Source: Cohaesibacteraceae bacterium (GTDB lineage: Bacteria > Pseudomonadota > Alphaproteobacteria > Rhizobiales > Cohaesibacteraceae). Taken from it: a stretch of DNA of 11,492 nucleotides. This document shows, one piece after another, positions 1,183 through 11,492 of this stretch; the stretch's first letter is position 1; each line of letters opens with the position of its first letter. The stretch lies in the NCBI GenBank assembly GCA_016764535.1, contig JAESRR010000128.1:1-11492 (forward strand), given 5' to 3'. The notes beneath the pieces are model-generated. The model was not told the origin of the DNA and did no database searches. It saw only the letters and a program-made list of their open reading frames with translations. The translations under genes were made by a program, and so were the position numbers.

Positions 1183-2033
1183 CGTACCGGCAACCATGCC
1201 CAGTTCATATTCCCGGATTTTTTAGCCTGTCGCGCCTTGTTCAGCACAGCTGCGATCCGGCGTTTGTAATACCGTGTACGCGGGTGCCTGTCGCCCAGTA
1301 TTTGCTTTGAGCTCACCAGCACCTGACGCAGCAGAGCCCCTGCTTCAATTTCCCTGCCTGCAACAGCCAGCAATTGACCAAGGTTAAACTTGCTGACCAA
1401 TAAGTTCGGGTCCTTGCTGTGCATTTCCCGTTGATCTATTGCAAGCGCGGTTCGATACATTGCCCCGGCTCCGGGATGATCACCGCGCTTTTGTAAAAAC
1501 TGTGCAAATTTGGTCGCAGAACGCGCCAGTCCGGGATGATGAACACCATACATCGATATCGTAATACTCTGTACTCTGCGGTAAGCCAGCTCGGCCGCAT
1601 TCCACCGGCGTTGCGCTCCCAGCGCTTCGGCAAGGCTGGCATACCCCCGAATACTGCCAGGATGTTTCCCGCCATATTGCTGATTGTAAAAATTCAGCGC
1701 CATTATCGCAAACGGCTGTGCCTGAGCGGGCATATTCAGTTTCAGAAGATTGGCAGCACGGTTATTGAAACTCTCGGCAGTGAGTGAGTGATGATCACCA
1801 AAATTCTCCTGCGCCAGTATCTGCGCTTTGCGAAACAGTAGCTCAGCCTGCTGATAGCGCCTGGCATGCATCAGTTTCAAAGCTTTCCCGGACAGTGCCA
1901 AAACCCGATCTTCAATGCCCGATTTATCCTGCAAATAATTATCATGCACCTGCGCCACAACCGGTGAACTCAAACCGGGAATTGTACCGAAAAACCATAT
2001 TACCTGCAGCAAATTCCAGGCAGAATGCCGCAT
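1179..2033 (-). CDS. Secreted or periplasmic TPR protein (kinesin-light-chain-like repeats)
   Basis: This gene encodes 284 residues starting MRHSAWN. The N-terminus looks like a Sec signal peptide: a short basic start, the hydrophobic core LLQVIWFFGTIPGL, and a plausible cleavage after VVA (residue 27). There is no lipobox cysteine. The rest is helical TPR of the 42-residue kinesin-light-chain type, with five repeat-boundary motifs: FGDHHS, YGGKHP, YGVHHP, MHSKDP and LGDRHP. Such repeats bind proteins; no catalytic domain is seen. The start at 2033 is preferred over an in-frame GTG at 2060 because a strong GGGGAGGG lies 7-8 bases upstream of the ATG, while the GTG has none and would add nine residues before the signal peptide. 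The gene converges on coq7 with overlapping stops and diverges from the histidine kinase. The partner and process are unknown. Confidence 0.82.
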   Translation of the reverse strand: MRHSAWNLLQVIWFFGTIPGLSSPVVAQVHDNYLQDKSGIEDRVLALSGKALKLMHARRYQQAELLFRKAQILAQENFGDHHSLTAESFNNRAANLLKLNMPAQAQPFAIMALNFYNQQYGGKHPGSIRGYASLAEALGAQRRWNAAELAYRRVQSITISMYGVHHPGLARSATKFAQFLQKRGDHPGAGAMYRTALAIDQREMHSKDPNLLVSKFNLGQLLAVAGREIEAGALLRQVLVSSKQILGDRHPRTRYYKRRIAAVLNKARQAKKSGNMNWAWLPVR

Positions 2034-2357
2034 GATCCAGCCCTCCCCGGCCTCCCGCACGTTCAGAAGAACATGCGTTTCATCAGTCAGGGAATAATAT
2101 ATCCAACATTCGTTACATAATTGTTATGTCAACCAAAACACCCGAAACTGGCCATATTGAGAATTACAACCAGGATCAGCAACCAGCCTGCAATGCGTAG
2201 AGGACTAAATTGGTGTATTAAAACAACCATTCAAATTCAGTGATTTTATACCGAAGCTTAAATTTACCATTACTATAAATTCACTTGCAGAATTACCGAT
2301 TTTTATATGTATTCAGGCATCCTGCTCGAGGTTATTTTCAAGGTAGCGGGACCAGTA
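2034..2357. promoter_or_regulatory. Divergent intergenic region between TPR gene and histidine kinase
   Basis: This AT-rich stretch must hold the promoters of both divergent genes. It contains a near-palindrome at 2112-2133 (GTT-ACATAA, TTG, TTATGT-C-AAC, with one extra base in the right arm) that could be a regulator site. TATATT-like sequence at about 2096-2101 could be a -10 for the leftward gene, and a TATAAAT at about 2274-2280 could be one for the kinase. No convincing -35 at standard spacing was found for either. No gene is supported here. Everything beyond the palindrome itself is inference. Confidence 0.4.
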
Positions 2358-4385
2358 ATGGGCGACACTCAAAAAAGGCAATGGACGAGATCTATTCAAT
2401 TCCGCTTTCTGTTTATACTTTTGCTTGGAGCCGGAATTATTGGTGTATTGGGCATCTACGGCACGTATTATGTCTCTCAACAGAACATGCAGGAACAGGT
2501 ACACAAGCGCGGGCTCAGTCTTGCGAGCTCGATCAACCATGCAGCAATGATCGCCCACTCAGACGCAGATCTACAGCATGTTATATCCGAGATTTCGAGG
2601 GAAAATCCGGATGTTAAAACTGTCGCCATCATGCTCAATCTGGATCAGAGAGTTTATTCTGCCATCAAAAGCAATGGAGATCCCTTTACCAAATACGCCG
2701 ACCAGGAAGACTGGTTAAAGATGGTAAAGACCACCAACACCGGGATTTTTAAGTCATTTGGCGAATTTGGCGAAGATATTTTAATCGTCACGCCATTGTG
2801 GCACACAATGGCGCAGATGATGCAAAAGGCCACAAATCCTGGATCAAACCCCGGTCTCGTGGAAAACCACGACAGCCATTCCAATGCAGTAATGTCCGAA
2901 GAAAGTACGCTCCCGGCAAAAATAGATATTGGTGCCAGGAACAAGCCTGCCACGACAACCAGCCGGCCCGTCATCAATGGAATGGACCACAGCAAACACA
3001 AAATGAAAGGCATGAACACGGAGAAATCCACTCCTAACAAAATGGACCACAGCGGCCACAACATGCCAGCCGCAACGCCGGTTGAACCGGCTAAAAGTCA
3101 AATCGATCACAGCAAACACGACATGCCGACAACATCCATCCCGCAAATGGCTGAAAGCACGATGGACAATGATATGGCAGGCATGGTGCACCAGCAAAGC
3201 GATACTGACTGGCAAAACTCTGTCCTTGCGGCAGATCAATATCGCGGCGTCATCCTGATCCGGATCGATCATGCGGGGGTAACCAATGCGATTTCCAACA
3301 TCATGTGGGCCATGACCCCTATCGGCGGATTTGGTATCCTATCGCTTCTGGCGCTAACATTCTTCCTGCTCCATAAATATGTCATGACCCCTCTCAACAG
3401 CATTCAAAAAGTTATGAAGGCCCAGCAAAACGGTGATTTGACCGCGCGCGCCGAAAGTTTAACCAGCCTCGAGTTTTCACAACTCGCGGACACTTTCAAC
3501 GAAATGATGAATGTTGCAGAAGTCCGTGAAATCATGATCAAAAAATCAGAAATCGAAATCAAGGATCACCGGGATCATCTGCAAGACATGGTCAATGATG
3601 CGACCAGGGAATTACAGAACCGCGCATCTGAACTTAACCAGTCTCTTGTGCGTGAGCAGGAACTGGGCAAAATTCAGCGTGAATTTGTCTCAATGGCGAG
3701 CCATGAATTTCGTACGCCTTTATCTATCATTGATCAGGGAGCCCAGCGGGTTATCAGCAAGGCTGGTCGGGACAAACTCACCAATGAAGATGTTACAAAA
3801 CGGATGAACCGAATTCGTGGTGCCGTCAAACGTATGACGCAGTTGATGAATTCAACGCTTGATTCCGCCAAACTGGAAGAGGGCAAACTTGATGTTAAAA
3901 TTGGCGATTGCAATATTGGAGCGCTGGTTAAGGAAGTTTGTGTTCGTCAGCAAGACGTCGCAAAAAACCACATCATCCTTTGTAGTCTTGAAGAGATGCC
4001 TTCCACCATTCGGGCAGATACCGGTTCTGTTGATCAAATCCTGACCAATTTGCTGTCAAATGCAGTGAAATATGCGCCCAAATCTCCGGAAATTGTCGTG
4101 AGTGCATGCCAGTTTGGGGATTTTGTCGAGATCACCGTAACCGACGAGGGGCTGGGCATTCCCAAATCCGAAGTCGCCAAAATCGGTGAGCGGTTTTTCC
4201 GGGCTTCGACTTCAAGCGGCATCGCGGGAACCGGAATTGGTCTCAATCTATGCATGACCCTTGTAGAAATGCATGACGGAACCATGACAGTTGAAAGCGT
4301 GATTGGCGAAGGCAGTACATTCACGGTGCGCCTTCCACTGGACGGCCCCAAAGAGGAAGCCGATGAGGATTCCAAAGCTGCCTGA
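2358..4385 (+). CDS. Membrane sensor histidine kinase with Met/His-rich periplasmic metal-binding-like insert
   Basis: This is a 675-residue inner-membrane histidine kinase. In order: a short basic cytoplasmic tail; TM1 (about 17-39); a periplasmic sensor (about 40-315); TM2 (about 316-338); HAMP (about 339-391); a linker helix; HisKA with H448 in MASHEFRTPL; and an ATPase domain with the N box NLLSNA (564-569), DEGLGIP (596-602) and GTGIGL (624-629). No receiver domain is fused. The sensor looks like a single Cache/PDC-type fold: strands KTVAIML and EDILIVTPLW lie before, and YRGVILIRID after, an inserted Met/His-rich stretch (about 169-278). The insert has MDHSKHKM (209-216), MDHSGHNM (229-236) and IDHSKHDM (249-256), exactly 20 residues apart, then a tail with four Met and one His (264-278). 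MDHSxxxM motifs are typical of periplasmic copper-resistance proteins such as PcoA/CopA, so copper or silver sensing is inferred. ATG 2358 follows GCGGGA by about 6 bases; ATG 2307 would add 17 residues but lacks a ribosome site. Confidence 0.9.
   Translation: MGDTQKRQWTRSIQFRFLFILLLGAGIIGVLGIYGTYYVSQQNMQEQVHKRGLSLASSINHAAMIAHSDADLQHVISEISRENPDVKTVAIMLNLDQRVYSAIKSNGDPFTKYADQEDWLKMVKTTNTGIFKSFGEFGEDILIVTPLWHTMAQMMQKATNPGSNPGLVENHDSHSNAVMSEESTLPAKIDIGARNKPATTTSRPVINGMDHSKHKMKGMNTEKSTPNKMDHSGHNMPAATPVEPAKSQIDHSKHDMPTTSIPQMAESTMDNDMAGMVHQQSDTDWQNSVLAADQYRGVILIRIDHAGVTNAISNIMWAMTPIGGFGILSLLALTFFLLHKYVMTPLNSIQKVMKAQQNGDLTARAESLTSLEFSQLADTFNEMMNVAEVREIMIKKSEIEIKDHRDHLQDMVNDATRELQNRASELNQSLVREQELGKIQREFVSMASHEFRTPLSIIDQGAQRVISKAGRDKLTNEDVTKRMNRIRGAVKRMTQLMNSTLDSAKLEEGKLDVKIGDCNIGALVKEVCVRQQDVAKNHIILCSLEEMPSTIRADTGSVDQILTNLLSNAVKYAPKSPEIVVSACQFGDFVEITVTDEGLGIPKSEVAKIGERFFRASTSSGIAGTGIGLNLCMTLVEMHDGTMTVESVIGEGSTFTVRLPLDGPKEEADEDSKAA
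2982..3125 (+). repeat. Three in-frame 60-bp repeats encoding MDHSxHxM motifs
   Basis: Inside the kinase gene, three related 24-base cores begin at 2982, 3042 and 3102, exactly 60 bases apart. They encode MDHSKHKM, MDHSGHNM and IDHSKHDM. The GAxCACAGC core (GACCACAGC twice, GATCACAGC once) is kept, while the spacers differ almost completely. The repetition is therefore maintained at the motif level and is not a fresh tandem duplication. Met and His side chains at this density are typical ligands for Cu(I) or Ag(I) in the periplasm. Confidence 0.85.
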
Positions 4386-4397
4386 TGCATCGGCAGC
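4377..4397. terminator. Hairpin at the convergent ends of the kinase and second TPR gene (possible weak terminator)
   Basis: GCTGCC at 4377-4382 and GGCAGC at 4392-4397 form a 6-bp stem, with GAT/ATC inside able to extend it. It straddles the kinase stop codon in the 45-base gap before the convergent TPR gene ends. Neither strand has a clear run of T after the stem; the leftward strand has only CTTTGG. A bidirectional terminator is possible but not well supported. Confidence 0.3.
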
Positions 4398-4430
4398 AGC
4401 GGTACCAACATCGATTATTGCCAGCCATTC

Positions 4431-6188
4431 TCACGAAAATTCAGACAAATACACCAGCAAACGCCGTGTTTCCGGGTGCTCTTCACCATGCATGGCCGTT
4501 GCATGGGCAAGCGCCTGTTCCATCAGAGGACTGGCTTGGGAAACCCTGCCCTGTTTAACAAGGTTCCTTGCCAGCGCGTCACAGGCACCGGCAATTCCGG
4601 CCTGACCCTGATCTCCGATCTGTTCAAACACCAGCAGGGATCGCCGTAGCAACGCCTCTGCAGCCGGGATTTCATTGCGCATTTCCAGACACCGGGCAAC
4701 CCGGCCAAGGCCCAATGCGGTCGTGATATGAAACGAGCCCGATATTTTTTGATGAATTTCAAGCGCAAGACAATAATGTTGTTCGGCACCTTCATGATCA
4801 CCGACGCTGGATAGCAAGCCAGCCAGATCATCATGACACCGGGCAGTTTGCGGATGGTTTGATCCAAAGAGCTGCATGGATCCATCCAGCGCCTTGCGAT
4901 ATAGATTACCGGCAGCAACATCCTGCCCGGCGGCTTTATAAGTGAAGGCCGCCGATCCAAAACAGACAATCAGTTCCGGTGTATCGCCATCATAAATCCG
5001 TTGATGCATTTCAAGGGTTTTATCAAACATGTTTGTTGCATCTTCAACTTGCCCTGCTGCAGCCAGACACATTGCCATTTGTTCAAATATCCGAGCCAGA
5101 TCATAGGTATCGCCTGACTTGGCAACACCGATAATTTGTGTTGCTTTTTGGTGTACCGGCCCGGCTTCACGATGCCTGCCACGTTTATCCAGATTACATG
5201 CAATCGCTGAATAGCTGCGGGCAACAGCAAGTGGATCAGATCCCGAATTTTCCAATTGTGCATTAAGTGCAGCATGATACAGATCCACCGCTTCGTCCTG
5301 TTGCTCTTTTTGGTCAAGGATACCGGCGAGAGAAAACTGAAAACCTGCCAAACGGTTTGTATCGGCATGCAAATTATTGCCTGTAAGGGCAATGCCGGAC
5401 CGGGCGTATTTTTCAGCCAATTCGAGATCACCGGCAAGACCTGCAAATTTAACAGCACAATGCAGATATTCAACATCGTCCGGGACATATTGCACCGCCC
5501 TGCCGAAATAATGGCTGGCATCCTGATTGTTCATTTCAAGCACTGCAACCAGTCCCAGCCCATAACAGATCTGCCCCCGGATCGCATCGGTCATCTGCGC
5601 ACAGGATAGTTTCAGGACTGCAAGAAGACATGTCCTTGCAGTTTCCACATCAGCATTGATCAGCGCATTCACTGCCTTCAGACAGGCCGATTTGTCCCCG
5701 GCTTGTTCCCCCGCGTGATCCTTGCTTCCAATCAGATCACTCAAAAGCGATTGCTCAAGAATATCGGCAAGTTTTTGCAAAAGTTTCGTTGATTTCGCAT
5801 GCCAACGGGATGGCAGATGCTGCATTTCATGAATATGGGATACCTGCCCGGTATTAAGAGAGATCTGATGGCAAAGTGCACTGATCAAAACCCGGGATTC
5901 GGAGTTATCTGGCGATTCATGCTGTGATGCCGTGTCAGCTTCAATGGCAAGATCAAGCTGCTGGAGCAAGGCTGTCGTGCCGGTTCCCAGTGCCACGAGC
6001 CTGCGTGAAAGCCAGGCACCATATTCGTTCAAACCAAACCCGGTCTGGATTGCCCCACCGGGTTTGGCCTGTGCATGCCAAATCGGTGCCCATCCTGGAA
6101 CTTTCATCCTGATAATCAGTTTTCTCAGCCAGTCAGACAATGCCCGTTTGCCTCCCGCATGATGTGAAACGATATTTTTTGCCGACAT
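4431..6188 (-). CDS. Large cytoplasmic TPR-repeat protein (kinesin-light-chain-like)
   Basis: This gene encodes 585 residues with no signal peptide or membrane segment; a basic start is followed by an unassigned region to about residue 170. Then comes conventional TPR sequence (GLGLVAVLEMNNQDASHYFG and GLAGDLELAEKYARSGIAL), and from about residue 300 a run of 42-residue kinesin-light-chain-type repeats. Their boundary motifs include GSDPLAVA, YDGDTPEL, FGSNHPQT, GSFHITTA, GDQGQAGI and HGEEHPET. The role is presumably protein-protein scaffolding; no enzyme domain is seen. The ATG at 6188 (MSAKNIVSHH) was chosen over an in-frame TTG at 6212. Neither start has a good ribosome site, so an internal ATG (MKVPGW) remains possible. 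The end repeat HGEEHPETRR resembles the end of the TPR gene at the right edge (LGDEHPETQN), so the two are likely paralogues. The gene converges on the kinase across 45 bases. Confidence 0.82.
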   Translation of the reverse strand: MSAKNIVSHHAGGKRALSDWLRKLIIRMKVPGWAPIWHAQAKPGGAIQTGFGLNEYGAWLSRRLVALGTGTTALLQQLDLAIEADTASQHESPDNSESRVLISALCHQISLNTGQVSHIHEMQHLPSRWHAKSTKLLQKLADILEQSLLSDLIGSKDHAGEQAGDKSACLKAVNALINADVETARTCLLAVLKLSCAQMTDAIRGQICYGLGLVAVLEMNNQDASHYFGRAVQYVPDDVEYLHCAVKFAGLAGDLELAEKYARSGIALTGNNLHADTNRLAGFQFSLAGILDQKEQQDEAVDLYHAALNAQLENSGSDPLAVARSYSAIACNLDKRGRHREAGPVHQKATQIIGVAKSGDTYDLARIFEQMAMCLAAAGQVEDATNMFDKTLEMHQRIYDGDTPELIVCFGSAAFTYKAAGQDVAAGNLYRKALDGSMQLFGSNHPQTARCHDDLAGLLSSVGDHEGAEQHYCLALEIHQKISGSFHITTALGLGRVARCLEMRNEIPAAEALLRRSLLVFEQIGDQGQAGIAGACDALARNLVKQGRVSQASPLMEQALAHATAMHGEEHPETRRLLVYLSEFS

Positions 6189-6267
6189 TATAAAGCCGCA
6201 ATGTTTCAGCAAACCAGAAGTACAAACTGGAATTGCGGATCATTTTCCGAAATTTCATACATTTTAC

Positions 6268-6896: not shown

Positions 6897-7802
6897 GTGT
6901 CAGATCTCAATGCACTGCTGATATATGCAAAAGTTGTCGATGCAGGCAGCTTTTCCAAAGCATCAAAAATTATGGGCATGCCCATATCGACTGTGAGTCG
7001 AAAAATTGCGGAGCTTGAAAACCAGCTGGGTGTACGACTGCTGGTGCGATCGACCAGACGAATGCGCCTCACCGATATCGGGCAGGAAGTCCTTGAGCAG
7101 GCCCGTCGAAGTTCTGAAGTCAGCGATACAATTGAAGACCTTGTCAAAAGTCGGGACTCCAGGATTCAGGGAAATCTGCGATTAACAGCATCTCCCGGCG
7201 TATCCGAATGCATCATTCCCCCACTTTTGCGGGAGTTTCAACCTTTGTATCCTGATATCAGGGTCAATATATTGATTGCTGACCGGCGTGTGGACCTGAT
7301 CGCGGAAGGAGCAGATCTTGCTTTTCGCCTTGGCCCACTGGCAGATTCAACACTTGTAGCCAAACAAATCCTGCACTACCGGCATTTACTGGTCGCCAGT
7401 CCGCAATATATCGAGAAATTCGGCGCACCCAAAACCCCCGAAGATCTGCTTAATCACCGTTATGCCGCTTTTGCTTTTGGTTCCCGGGAAAGTTCGCGGA
7501 TATTCACAAAGGGCAATAGCGAGAAAACCATTACAGTTGATCCGCACCTGGCAATGAACGGTTATCCAGGTCTTGGTAAAGCGATCGCAGCAGGTTTGGG
7601 AGTGGGTGATATAACCCCGTTTGCCGCCGCCTATCATCTCGAGAAGAATGAAATTGTTGAAGTGATGACTGACTGGAAATTGCCACCCGTTGATATGTAT
7701 CTGGTACATATTGGCAACCGCCACGTTCCAAAACATGTGCAGATCTTTATGGATTTTGCGACAAAACGAATCCCCGAAATCTATCCCGACTTGCCCTGCT
7801 AG
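6897..7802 (+). CDS. LysR-type transcriptional regulator, tandem copy A
   Basis: This is a 301-residue regulator of full family length. The N-terminal winged helix-turn-helix (about 1-60) has FSKASKIMGMPISTVSRKIA (19-38) as the helix-turn-helix, then LGVRLLVRSTRRMRLTDIG. The effector domain (about 90-295) opens with GNLRLTASPG and contains RVDLIAEGADLAFRLGPL, a pattern shared by the CrgA-like branch. The GTG start is fixed by an in-frame TAG at 6876-6878 with no other start between, and copy B starts at the matching GTG; ribosome-site sequence is weak in both. It is about 75% identical by eye to copy B. The effector pocket and the region around residues 190-210 differ most, while the recognition helix differs little. 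The two may therefore read the same operators but respond to different ligands. That last point is inference. Confidence 0.95.
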   Translation: MSDLNALLIYAKVVDAGSFSKASKIMGMPISTVSRKIAELENQLGVRLLVRSTRRMRLTDIGQEVLEQARRSSEVSDTIEDLVKSRDSRIQGNLRLTASPGVSECIIPPLLREFQPLYPDIRVNILIADRRVDLIAEGADLAFRLGPLADSTLVAKQILHYRHLLVASPQYIEKFGAPKTPEDLLNHRYAAFAFGSRESSRIFTKGNSEKTITVDPHLAMNGYPGLGKAIAAGLGVGDITPFAAAYHLEKNEIVEVMTDWKLPPVDMYLVHIGNRHVPKHVQIFMDFATKRIPEIYPDLPC

Positions 7803-8697: not shown

Positions 8698-9603
8698 GTG
8701 TCAGATCTTAACGCATTGCTCATTTACGCCAAGGTTGTCGATGCAGGCAGCTTTTCGCAGGCTTCCAGAATTCTGGGCATGCCGATATCAACAGTGAGCC
8801 GAAAAATTGCCGAACTTGAGGATCAGCTCGGTGTACGATTGCTCGAGCGCTCAACCAGACAAATGCGATTGACAGATATCGGCAAGGATGTGCTGGAACA
8901 GGCTCGTCAAAGTGAAATGATCAGCGACTCTATTTCCGAACTGGTTAAAAACCAGTCGTCTGAAGTTCAGGGCGCCTTGCGATTGACAGCCAGCCCGGGT
9001 GTTAACGATTGCATTATTGGCCCCCTTTTGCTGGAATTCCAGCCTATGTATCCAGATATCAGGGTCAACATACTTATCGCTGATCGATATATTGACTTGA
9101 TCGCCGAGGGAGCTGATCTCGCTATCCGGCTCGGGCCGCTTGCCGATTCAACACTCATTGCCAAAAAAATCCTGCATTATCGCCATGTGGTTGTCGCCAG
9201 TCCGCAATATATTGAAAAGTTTGGAATTCCCGAAACGCCTTTGGATCTGGCCAACCACAGATATGTAGCTTTTTCATTTGGCTCGCCGCAAAGCACACGC
9301 AGGTTTACCAAAGATGGAATTGAAGAAGTCGTAAATTTCAAACCACATCTGGCAATGAACGGTTATCCTGGTCTTGCCAAAGCCATTGCAAACGGTGCTG
9401 GCCTCGGAGATCTAACCCCTGTTGTCGCGGCAAAATATTTGAAATCCGGAGAAGTTGTTGAAGTTTTGGCTGACTGGAAGTTACCCCCCGTTGATTTGTT
9501 TCTGGTACATCTGGGCAACCGGCATCTCCCCAAACAGGTGCGAATATTCATGGATTTCGCAGTAAAGCGCATCCCTGAACTTTATCCCGATTTACCCTGC
9601 TAA
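8698..9603 (+). CDS. LysR-type transcriptional regulator, tandem copy B
   Basis: This is a 301-residue paralogue of copy A, aligning without gaps from MSDLNALLIYAKVVDAGSFS to the shared end YPDLPC. The winged helix-turn-helix (FSQASRILGMPISTVSRKIA at 19-38) is followed by LGVRLLERSTRQMRLTDIG. The effector domain begins GALRLTASPG and contains YIDLIAEGADLAIRLGPL. The GTG start is supported by an in-frame TAA at 8677-8679 and by the match to copy A. Differences between the copies cluster around residues 72-92, 190-212 and 230-255. A small gene of unknown function follows 110 bases downstream on the same strand and could be co-regulated. Confidence 0.95.
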   Translation: MSDLNALLIYAKVVDAGSFSQASRILGMPISTVSRKIAELEDQLGVRLLERSTRQMRLTDIGKDVLEQARQSEMISDSISELVKNQSSEVQGALRLTASPGVNDCIIGPLLLEFQPMYPDIRVNILIADRYIDLIAEGADLAIRLGPLADSTLIAKKILHYRHVVVASPQYIEKFGIPETPLDLANHRYVAFSFGSPQSTRRFTKDGIEEVVNFKPHLAMNGYPGLAKAIANGAGLGDLTPVVAAKYLKSGEVVEVLADWKLPPVDLFLVHLGNRHLPKQVRIFMDFAVKRIPELYPDLPC

Positions 9604-9713: not shown

Positions 9714-10079
9714 ATGGCCAATTCCACCACACAAAAAATGCAAGAATCCGGTCGGGAAATATACGCCCTCACTTCTGATATTCGGTATGTTGCACTCTAT
9801 CGCGGAGGTGAACTGGTCACTTCACAAAAAGACGGTTTATCAGCCGCGTCCGATGCGGGCAGTGATCAATATGAAGAGCTTCTGGTCAACCCGACCCTGC
9901 TCAAACTGGTCCAGCAACGCGGCAACATAGATTGTGGTGGTGCAGGTTTTGTGATTGTCGGTTATGGCAATTTTTTACAACTTGTCATCGCACTTGATGA
10001 CGGCCATGTCTCGGTCTGTTTTGAGAAATCAGCCAATCCCATCGGATTTGTTGATCCGATCCGCGCAATTTGCCAATAA
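9714..10079 (+). CDS. Conserved-looking small protein of unknown function (121 residues)
   Basis: I do not recognise this protein with confidence. It has no signal peptide or membrane segment. The sequence alternates strand-like runs (IRYVALYRGGEL, GFVIVGYGNFLQLVIAL, HVSVCFE) with a helix (DQYEELLVNPTLLKLVQQRG), like a small alpha/beta sensor fold. A profilin/roadblock-like fold is conceivable but unproven. The ATG at 9714 is well supported by AAAGGA seven bases upstream, the best plus-strand ribosome site in the window. It lies 110 bases after LysR copy B and converges on the last TPR gene across 54 bases. It is probably a cytoplasmic protein, possibly expressed with or controlled by the LysR gene. 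No counterpart is found after copy A. Confidence 0.75.
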   Translation: MANSTTQKMQESGREIYALTSDIRYVALYRGGELVTSQKDGLSAASDAGSDQYEELLVNPTLLKLVQQRGNIDCGGAGFVIVGYGNFLQLVIALDDGHVSVCFEKSANPIGFVDPIRAICQ

Positions 10080-10133: not shown

Positions 10134-11492
10134 TCATGCACTATAATGCATTGCCAGGATTTGCATGTAATTCTGGGTTTCGGGATGTTCATCACCAAGA
10201 ACCCGGCGAGCGATCATCACCGCTTTTTCCATCATCGGGCGCGCATCGTGTTCACGCCCCTGGGCAAACAGATTTGACGATAGATTGCGATAGCTGATGG
10301 CGGTATCGGCATGTTCGTCGCCAAAGCTTTCAAAACGAATACCCAGCGCCATCCGATACAGCGGCTCTGCTTCATCATAACGTTGCTGTTCGTCCAGATT
10401 AATTGCCAGATCATTAAACCCCGACGCACGACCAGGATCATCGTCACCCAAAACCCGGTCCTCTATTTCCATGGCCCTGCGATAGAGCGGCTCGGCATCA
10501 ATAAACTTCCCCTGGGCATCAAGGGTTCCAGCCAGATTACGATAGGCAGTGGCGACACTGACATCCTCCTCCCCAAACATTCTGATATGCGCTTCAAGCC
10601 CGGAGCGAAAATATATTTCAGCTTCCCCGTGACGTTCCTGCCGTGTCAGATTGAGTGCAAGATTGCCATGCGCGAGCACAGTCTCGGGATGATCCTCACC
10701 AAATTCCGCGCGCTTCAAATCAAGGGCATTGTGATGCAGGGGTTCAGCTTCAGCCAACCGGCCCAATTGATCCAGAATGCTCGCCAGCATACTGTAGCCT
10801 GAGGCGGTTCGGTGGTGATGCACACCAAGGTCCCGCTCATGGATCGCCAGCATTTTACGGACATGAATTTCCGCTTCGCTATAATTGCCAAGTCGCAACA
10901 AACAGCCGCCAAGATTACCAAAACTCTCGGCTGTTTCCGGTGCGGCATCGCCAAAACCTTCCAGACATATATCAAGCGCCTTGCGAAATAGTGGCTCGGC
11001 TTCCTCAAACCGGTTTTGCCGCGTCAGATTGAAAGCCAGATTGGAGTAGTCGATACCAAGGCCAACGCTGTTTTCATCCAGACTGCCAAGATCGATTTCC
11101 AGTTCGCGGCGATAAAGAACTTCCGCTTCCTCAAATCGTGCGACATTGTCCAGAATATGCGCAAGCGTCCCATAGCCGGTCGCCACACTGGGATGTTGCG
11201 CCCCCAGAACCTGCTCGTGGATATGCAAGAGCCTGCGATACACTGGCTCTGTGTATTCCGGTCGATTGGTTTCAATGTAAATTTTTGCCAGCGGATATAG
11301 CGGATTGGCCGGAGCTGCGCCTGTTTTGGCAAGCAGTGCATGCGCCAGCAAGACCCACGCGGCACCCAACCGGTCGGCAAGATCGACATCGCGGACAATA
11401 CAGGCATGGACGAGGGATTGCCCCAGATATTGTGGCTCGAGTGGCATCAATTCCACCGCCCGGGCAAAAAATCGGGTCTTGATCGCTTCACC
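10134..11492 (-). CDS. TPR-repeat protein (kinesin-light-chain-like), 5' end outside window
   Basis: The frame remains open to the right edge (GEAIKTRFFARAVELMPL at the border), so the true start lies outside; the GTG at 11456 is internal. About 452 residues are visible. After a helical N-terminal part there are about nine 42-residue repeats, each with a boundary such as LGAQHPSV, FGDAAPET, FGEDHPET, LGDDDPGR, FGDEHADT and LGDEHPET, and cores such as NLALNLTRQERHGEAEIYFR. This is the kinesin-light-chain TPR type, expected to form a curved protein-binding scaffold. No other domain is visible. The repeats here are cleaner than in the gene at 4431-6188. Its sixth-from-last region matches the relic at 7950-8085. 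Confidence 0.88.
   Translation of the reverse strand, partial: GEAIKTRFFARAVELMPLEPQYLGQSLVHACIVRDVDLADRLGAAWVLLAHALLAKTGAAPANPLYPLAKIYIETNRPEYTEPVYRRLLHIHEQVLGAQHPSVATGYGTLAHILDNVARFEEAEVLYRRELEIDLGSLDENSVGLGIDYSNLAFNLTRQNRFEEAEPLFRKALDICLEGFGDAAPETAESFGNLGGCLLRLGNYSEAEIHVRKMLAIHERDLGVHHHRTASGYSMLASILDQLGRLAEAEPLHHNALDLKRAEFGEDHPETVLAHGNLALNLTRQERHGEAEIYFRSGLEAHIRMFGEEDVSVATAYRNLAGTLDAQGKFIDAEPLYRRAMEIEDRVLGDDDPGRASGFNDLAINLDEQQRYDEAEPLYRMALGIRFESFGDEHADTAISYRNLSSNLFAQGREHDARPMMEKAVMIARRVLGDEHPETQNYMQILAMHYSA

Follow-up and report, generated by a model that had tools for sequence, protein, structure and literature searches.

A Sensor Histidine Kinase with a Periodic Met/His-Rich Insert in a Cache-Type Domain: A Candidate Cu(I)/Ag(I) Sensor

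We analyzed a contig of a Cohaesibacteraceae bacterium over its whole length of 11,492 nucleotides (the window) and found that it encodes a histidine kinase whose predicted periplasmic domain carries, in its last β hairpin, a 147-residue insert with Met/His motifs on a 20-residue grid. In our assessment, this membrane kinase probably senses a soft metal ion in the periplasm, with Cu(I)/Ag(I) as the likeliest candidates; the ion would be captured by the disordered Met/His tether and thereby drive the kinase. The protein would thus be a new form of metal-sensing Cache/PDC kinase with an unusually long, periodic tether; its family is small and includes a c-di-GMP counterpart.

Domain Layout and the Periodic Insert

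The features of the kinase gene are as follows (coordinates in the window, strand, description and basis).

2358..4385, +, sensor histidine kinase gene, 675 residues (open reading frame list; Pfam; database protein P0001 starts at 2358)
2403..2468, +, first membrane helix, approximate (by inspection; inside the model's long first helix)
2469..2798, +, part 1 of the putative Cache-type core, helices and strands 1-4, ending in DILIVTPL (alignment, model)
2532..2549, +, INHAAM, the NHxx[M/I] motif in helix 1 (kept in every insert-bearing relative seen)
2799..3239, +, insert of 147 residues between strands 4 and 5 (composition; predicted disorder)
2862..2921, +, slot 169, weak motif copy ENHDSHSNAVM (slot alignment)
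2922..2981, +, slot 189, degenerate in the window protein (IDIGARN) and MDHDGMNM in its homolog P0002 (slot alignment)
2982..3005, +, motif MDHSKHKM, residue 209 (sequence)
3042..3065, +, motif MDHSGHNM, residue 229 (sequence)
3102..3125, +, motif IDHSKHDM, residue 249 (sequence)
3162..3191, +, Met-rich tail MDNDMAGMVH, residue 269, on the 20-residue grid (sequence)
3240..3266, +, strand 5 of the core, YRGVILIRI (alignment, model)
3315..3383, +, second membrane helix, approximate (sequence inspection)
3366..3509, +, HAMP domain (Pfam)
3675..3884, +, HisKA domain, with the H-box SHEFRTP at 3699-3719 (Pfam)
4023..4343, +, HATPase_c domain (Pfam)

An upstream ATG, at 2307, lies in the same open frame; the gene call uses the ATG at 2358. 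HAMP (30.7 bits), HisKA (39.7 bits) and HATPase_c (95.2 bits) all scored above the Pfam gathering scores, which identifies the protein as a histidine kinase. An earlier note made from the DNA alone had described a sensor kinase with the motifs in its extracellular domain, and this layout was recovered, with the motifs between the two membrane helices (placed by inspection) and HAMP, HisKA and HATPase_c after them. The family model of heavy-metal sensor kinases (TIGR01386, cztS_silS_copS) gave 118.9 bits, below its curated cut-off of 292.55, and its best-scoring stretch was the kinase part (430-677). A scan of positions 2000-4600 returned no promoter-like sites (3.5 expected) and two terminator-like sites (3.2 expected), and a search against Rfam gave no matches.

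The insert contains 14 Met and 10 His residues and no Cys. Its three [MI]DHSxHxM motifs are spaced by exactly 60 nucleotides, or 20 residues, and are followed by the Met-rich tail, just as the earlier note had reported; only the start it gave for the feature, 2850, was slightly late, as the insert occupies 2799-3239. The grid spans slots 169 to 269 and has up to six Met/His motif slots. Shuffling the whole protein 100,000 times never produced such a motif, and when residues 171-282 alone were shuffled it appeared once each in 12 of 100,000. Autocorrelation of Met/His positions over lags 8-34 also peaked at lag 20, with p 0.021 for the window protein once the choice of the maximum over lags is allowed for, and p 0.006 for P0002. 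Comparison of the DNA gave 75-83% similarity among motif copies and 31-44% among the linkers between them, which rules out recent tandem duplication as the origin of the array. The DNA form of DHSxHxM was found at five sites in the genome (87% complete), three of which lie within the kinase gene. The insert is predicted to be disordered, with pLDDT below 50 over nearly its whole length and 24-29 in its middle.

Sensor Fold and the Single Origin of the Insert

The structure model of the window protein has low confidence (mean pLDDT 47.9), and the order of elements in it (long helix, helix, two strands, helix, three strands and exit helix) is that of Cache/PDC domains. According to this low-confidence model, the insert appears to open the last β hairpin, strands 4 and 5, of a Cache-type domain. 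The earlier note had proposed Cache-like strands on both sides of the insert and a structure prediction as a check; the predicted order around the insert agrees with it at this level of confidence. Structural matches also count in favor of this reading; with the same model, Foldseek returned no match at E 0.001, and Pfam Cache models returned none for the window protein at E 1; one of nine family members matched dCache_1 (E 0.078). The model of another relative, P0005, is poor (mean pLDDT 41.1) and has a similar order in the sensor part, with the third strand absent. Among PDB sequences, the family profile had a single match below E 0.01, to 5o7j ("Histidine kinase"), which we take to be the GacS sensor domain (E 0.0033, covering 67 positions of the profile); the match is partial, and the 5o7j chain, at 150 residues, is too short to hold such an insert.

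A search for homologs among 5.8 billion proteins, restricted to relatives sharing exact words and of similar length, matched the sensor region only in the window protein itself and in P0002, a protein of 664 residues that is 75% identical overall to the window kinase. Its motifs are at residues 189, 209 and 229, on the same 20-residue grid with different occupancy, and its insert has 16 Met and 11 His. Identity between the two proteins is 55/133 in the insert, 91/110 in the preceding core and 218/236 in the kinase, and judged by these sequence identities the insert is a fast-evolving region. Within residues 160-282, however, Met/His were kept at 15 of 20 positions versus 25 of 103 other positions (Fisher p 2.6e-5), a figure for which gap-facing positions were counted as not kept and which is helped by the aligner's preference for matching motifs. 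In this one protein pair, the insert is thus under apparent selection for Met/His.

We then compared eight complete insert-bearing proteins and seven insert-less ones, drawn from profile searches of the sampled class and phylum. The hairpin is 45-147 residues long in the former and 7-14 in the latter. In a tree built without the insert columns, in which several outgroup branches are long, all eight insert-bearers were on one side of a branch with support 100/99 (99% of 200 bootstraps), which shows that the insert arose once within this small family. A ninth protein, the fragment G067 C766, was excluded from the tree and the hairpin counts; its contig ends at the insert. The motif NHxx[M/I] in helix 1 was present in 9 of 9 insert-bearers (including this contig-end fragment) and in 0 of 7 insert-less relatives; since the insert-bearers form one clade, this co-occurrence counts as one event.

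The family is sparsely distributed. Besides its own genome, none of the 60 relative genomes searched had the sensor region. Profile A3, with at most six candidates scored per genome, had matches at E 1e-4 in 6 of the 384 other class genomes sampled, and in four of these six all members were insert-less; the phylum search matched 12 of 397 other sampled genomes at E 1e-3, mostly weakly. The 16 match rows of the latter comprised four already known places (in the own genome and G170), three that were kept as insert-less outgroups (L035, L036, L037) and nine that were inspected and left out (L038-L045 and L048; E 5e-6 or worse). A scan of genome contigs gave four loci with matches in the kinase part or the HAMP region, none with the sensor insert, and a search of a plasmid collection gave no match. 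A homolog search with alignment A2 also gave no match, under length limits that excluded most proteins of the sensor family. None of the 384 other class genomes sampled contained the tandem DHxxHxM pattern at the DNA level, suggesting that the array, at least in its strict form, is rare in this class.

Met/His enrichment in the insert over the core was significant on its own in the window protein (p 0.014), P0002 (p 0.004) and P0003 (p 0.021), and fell short of significance on its own in P0005 (p 0.10), G067 C761 (p 0.19) and G067 C164 (p 0.15). Two further inserts, in G366 and G797, are rich in Ala, Pro and Arg and showed no enrichment (Met/His fraction in insert versus core 0.059 vs 0.063 and 0.080 vs 0.087, respectively), which suggests that the insertion itself needed no metal ligands.

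An NMT1-type periplasmic binding-protein gene adjoins all four insert-less members from the same class (G336, G170, G069 and G203; loci L069, L070, L071 and L072), two of which are kinases (by inspection) and two, in G069 and G203, GGDEF-EAL proteins (by Pfam). These are likely binding-protein-coupled sensor pairs. This neighbor comparison covers these four same-class members; the other three outgroups are G753, G674 and G601. A tblastn search with two NMT1-type proteins (E 0.01) found none at seven insert-bearing loci (the window, L009 and L064-L068), of which L065 shows only 182 bases upstream of the kinase frame; the P0002 and P0005 loci are outside the sample. The difference between the two groups suggests that a separate binding protein was perhaps exchanged for a built-in tether.

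Functional Interpretation and Genomic Context

If several motifs bind metal, the tether would fold or become compact, as reported for SilE, and its compaction could pull on strands 4 and 5. Strand 5 leads by way of the second membrane helix to HAMP, and such a movement would therefore alter autophosphorylation. The NHxxM residues of helix 1 may provide a second metal site, in the core. Metal binding, the identity of the metal, the direction of the response and the partner regulator are here what we infer.

A possible connection to copper comes from the motifs themselves. The insert columns of profile A2 matched a multicopper oxidase of genome G354 (L026; E 0.0016), which carries MDHSGH motifs and whose best NCBIfam match is copper_res_A (TIGR01480; 411 bits against a cut-off of 479). 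This is consistent with the resemblance to the motifs of PcoA/CopA copper oxidases that the earlier note had pointed out. The own genome (87% complete) has two multicopper oxidases with weak matches to copper_res_A, both without MDHS-type motifs, and none that reaches the cut-off. Next to the kinases of G366 and G797 (L064:9382-11010 and L068:2792-5201; one genus), the nearest recognized gene on the 3' side is PpoB2 (Pfam "Copper chaperone"), facing the kinase, followed by DUF1326. Only these two kinases have a PpoB2 neighbor, and they are exactly those whose inserts lack Met/His enrichment. A search for PpoB2 in the own genome gave no match, though control genomes gave none either. On the other side of the L068 kinase are a molybdopterin oxidoreductase and a TauE-type permease.

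The one other copy of the sensor domain in the own genome belongs to a GGDEF-EAL protein (L009:1096-3504, minus strand), a close relative of P0005 (source name MAG Hyphomicrobiales bacterium). Its insert is at the same place and has 80 residues, with 8 His and 4 Met. Through this protein, an input like that of the window kinase may feed c-di-GMP. Upstream of its gene are a periplasmic SBP_bac gene (unrelated to the NMT1 type), a 2CSK_N-type kinase and a response regulator.

Several alternatives were weighed against the reading as a tether-driven metal sensor. One of them, considerably less probable, is that the insert is a local metal buffer or delivery tether while the Cache core reads the true signal, which would come from a small ligand or a further metal site, so that loss of the insert would shift sensitivity and signaling would not be abolished. 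Small-ligand binding in the core is usual for Cache domains, and across the family the helix-1 NHxx[M/I] motif is retained more widely than the Met/His array is. Besides, half-loop deletions in CusS keep much or all function (PMC10100754). However, we identified no ligand-pocket signature in the core, and relatives with few Met/His still retain the insert, implying that the core may depend on it.

We regard it as rather improbable that the tether is tuned through its histidines to another metal, such as Zn(II), Ni(II) or Cu(II). His-rich stretches often bind borderline metals, and the inserts of the GGDEF-EAL paralogs are indeed His-rich and Met-poor (8 His and 4 Met; 7 His and 2 Met), but Met exceeds His in both the window protein and P0002, and by coordination chemistry an excess of Met favors soft Cu(I)/Ag(I). 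Least credible of all is a functionless, fast-evolving, low-complexity linker whose Met/His motifs arose by drift. The wide variation of the inserts in length and composition, including the Ala/Pro/Arg-rich ones, would fit drift, yet Met/His are preferentially kept between the window protein and P0002, which also share the 20-residue grid, and the copper_res_A-like oxidase carries motifs of this type.

A broader scenario is tentative, and we hold it with clearly less confidence than the reading of the window protein as a metal sensor. In Cache sensors, presumably of Alphaproteobacteria and including both kinases and c-di-GMP enzymes, an ancestral hairpin insertion together with the helix-1 NHxxM might have replaced dependence on an NMT1 binding protein; in the lineage of the window kinase, the tether might then have become a metal sponge on a 20-residue grid for multivalent, graded sensing of Cu(I)/Ag(I), also wired to c-di-GMP.

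The other genes of the window are listed below.

586-1182, +, COQ7-family protein (above the Pfam cut-off; 52 bits, far below the NCBIfam equivalog cut-off of 180)
1179-2060, 4431-6212 and 10134-11456, -, three TPR-repeat proteins around the kinase (TPR_12/TPR_10 type; Pfam)
6897-7802 and 8698-9603, +, two tandem LysR regulators, closely similar by eye (Pfam, inspection)
9714-10079, +, reading frame of 121 residues (no Pfam or significant NCBIfam match)

Positions 28-573 hold a truncated piece of a third LysR gene. No metal genes were found by Pfam among the nine window proteins searched, and an adjacent copper operon or response regulator was looked for and is absent from the window, which is the whole contig and in which the neighbors are TPR, COQ7-like and LysR proteins. 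Elsewhere in the genome, a PAS kinase (L002) that is 46% identical in the kinase domain has an adjoining response-regulator-like gene, and this regulator is a possible shared partner of the window kinase.

Comparison with Known Metal Systems

The periplasmic domain of CusS is of the PDC/Cache type. In E. coli K-12 CusS, the Met/His loop is MMMPGHGHGHMEHS, about 24 residues (129-152), and it precedes WRMINLPV and YTLYIALSID, which by inspection we took as the last strand pair. The loop holds Ag(I) ligands (PMC7763554, PMC10100754). According to the latter, the ligands are H42, F43 and H176, together with S84, M133, M135 and H145 in the disordered loop; deletion of one loop half leaves much or all copper resistance, and deletion of both halves gives a phenotype like the vector control (PMC10100754). 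The earlier note had set CusS and PcoS apart as sensors without such repeats; for CusS the contrast does not hold as put, because CusS has a Met/His loop that is needed for copper resistance (PMC10100754). A disordered Met/His loop in a copper kinase has thus already been described, whereas for an extended array with 20-residue spacing in the last hairpin we found no description among the matches listed, with the full text of subscription journals mostly outside the search.

Other systems share single traits with the window kinase. CzcS has a PDC-like domain with Zn(II) at the interface (PMC5540610), and P. aeruginosa CopS is described as having two Cu(I) at the interface and no CusS-type loop (PMC7763554). 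Both have metal-sensing periplasmic domains but differ in that metal is bound at the dimer interface and, for CopS, in the lack of a Met/His loop (PMC5540610 and PMC7763554). The CopA/PcoA-type oxidases (TIGR01480) are similar in the MDHSGH-type motifs seen in L026, but they are enzymes of unrelated fold with no kinase. SilE is disordered and folds on binding six Ag(I), and the SilE/PcoE sponges carry spaced motifs that together comprise ten His and ten to fifteen Met, with metal-induced folding (PMC5008109). The window kinase has the same trait, a stretch (predicted to be disordered) with spaced Met/His motifs. However, SilE and PcoE are free soluble proteins with other motif spacing, while the window array is built into a sensor domain.

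CusS and the window kinase are alike in having a periplasmic domain between two membrane helices and a disordered Met/His loop. They differ in that the CusS loop has about 24 residues, no repeat grid and a place (by inspection) in the hairpin before the last, whereas the window insert is 147 residues long, follows a 20-residue grid and lies in the last hairpin; also, cusR and cusCFB adjoin cusS, whereas the window kinase has no adjoining regulator or metal gene. Comparison by hhalign with the single CusS sequence gave a probability of 5.7 over 50 columns, a weak alignment that places Asn-Met at the position of the CusS interface residues His42-Phe43, and at this level there is no convincing sequence relation between the sensor domains. 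By analogy, the window kinase plausibly acts as a CusS-like sensor in which a different hairpin carries a fused, SilE-like sponge. If this is true, a general sensor fold could become a metal sensor through one hairpin insertion, the capture part would be separable from the signaling part, a metal input to c-di-GMP would be suggested by the paralog, and the insert would be a naturally occurring equivalent of the CusS loop at a much greater length.
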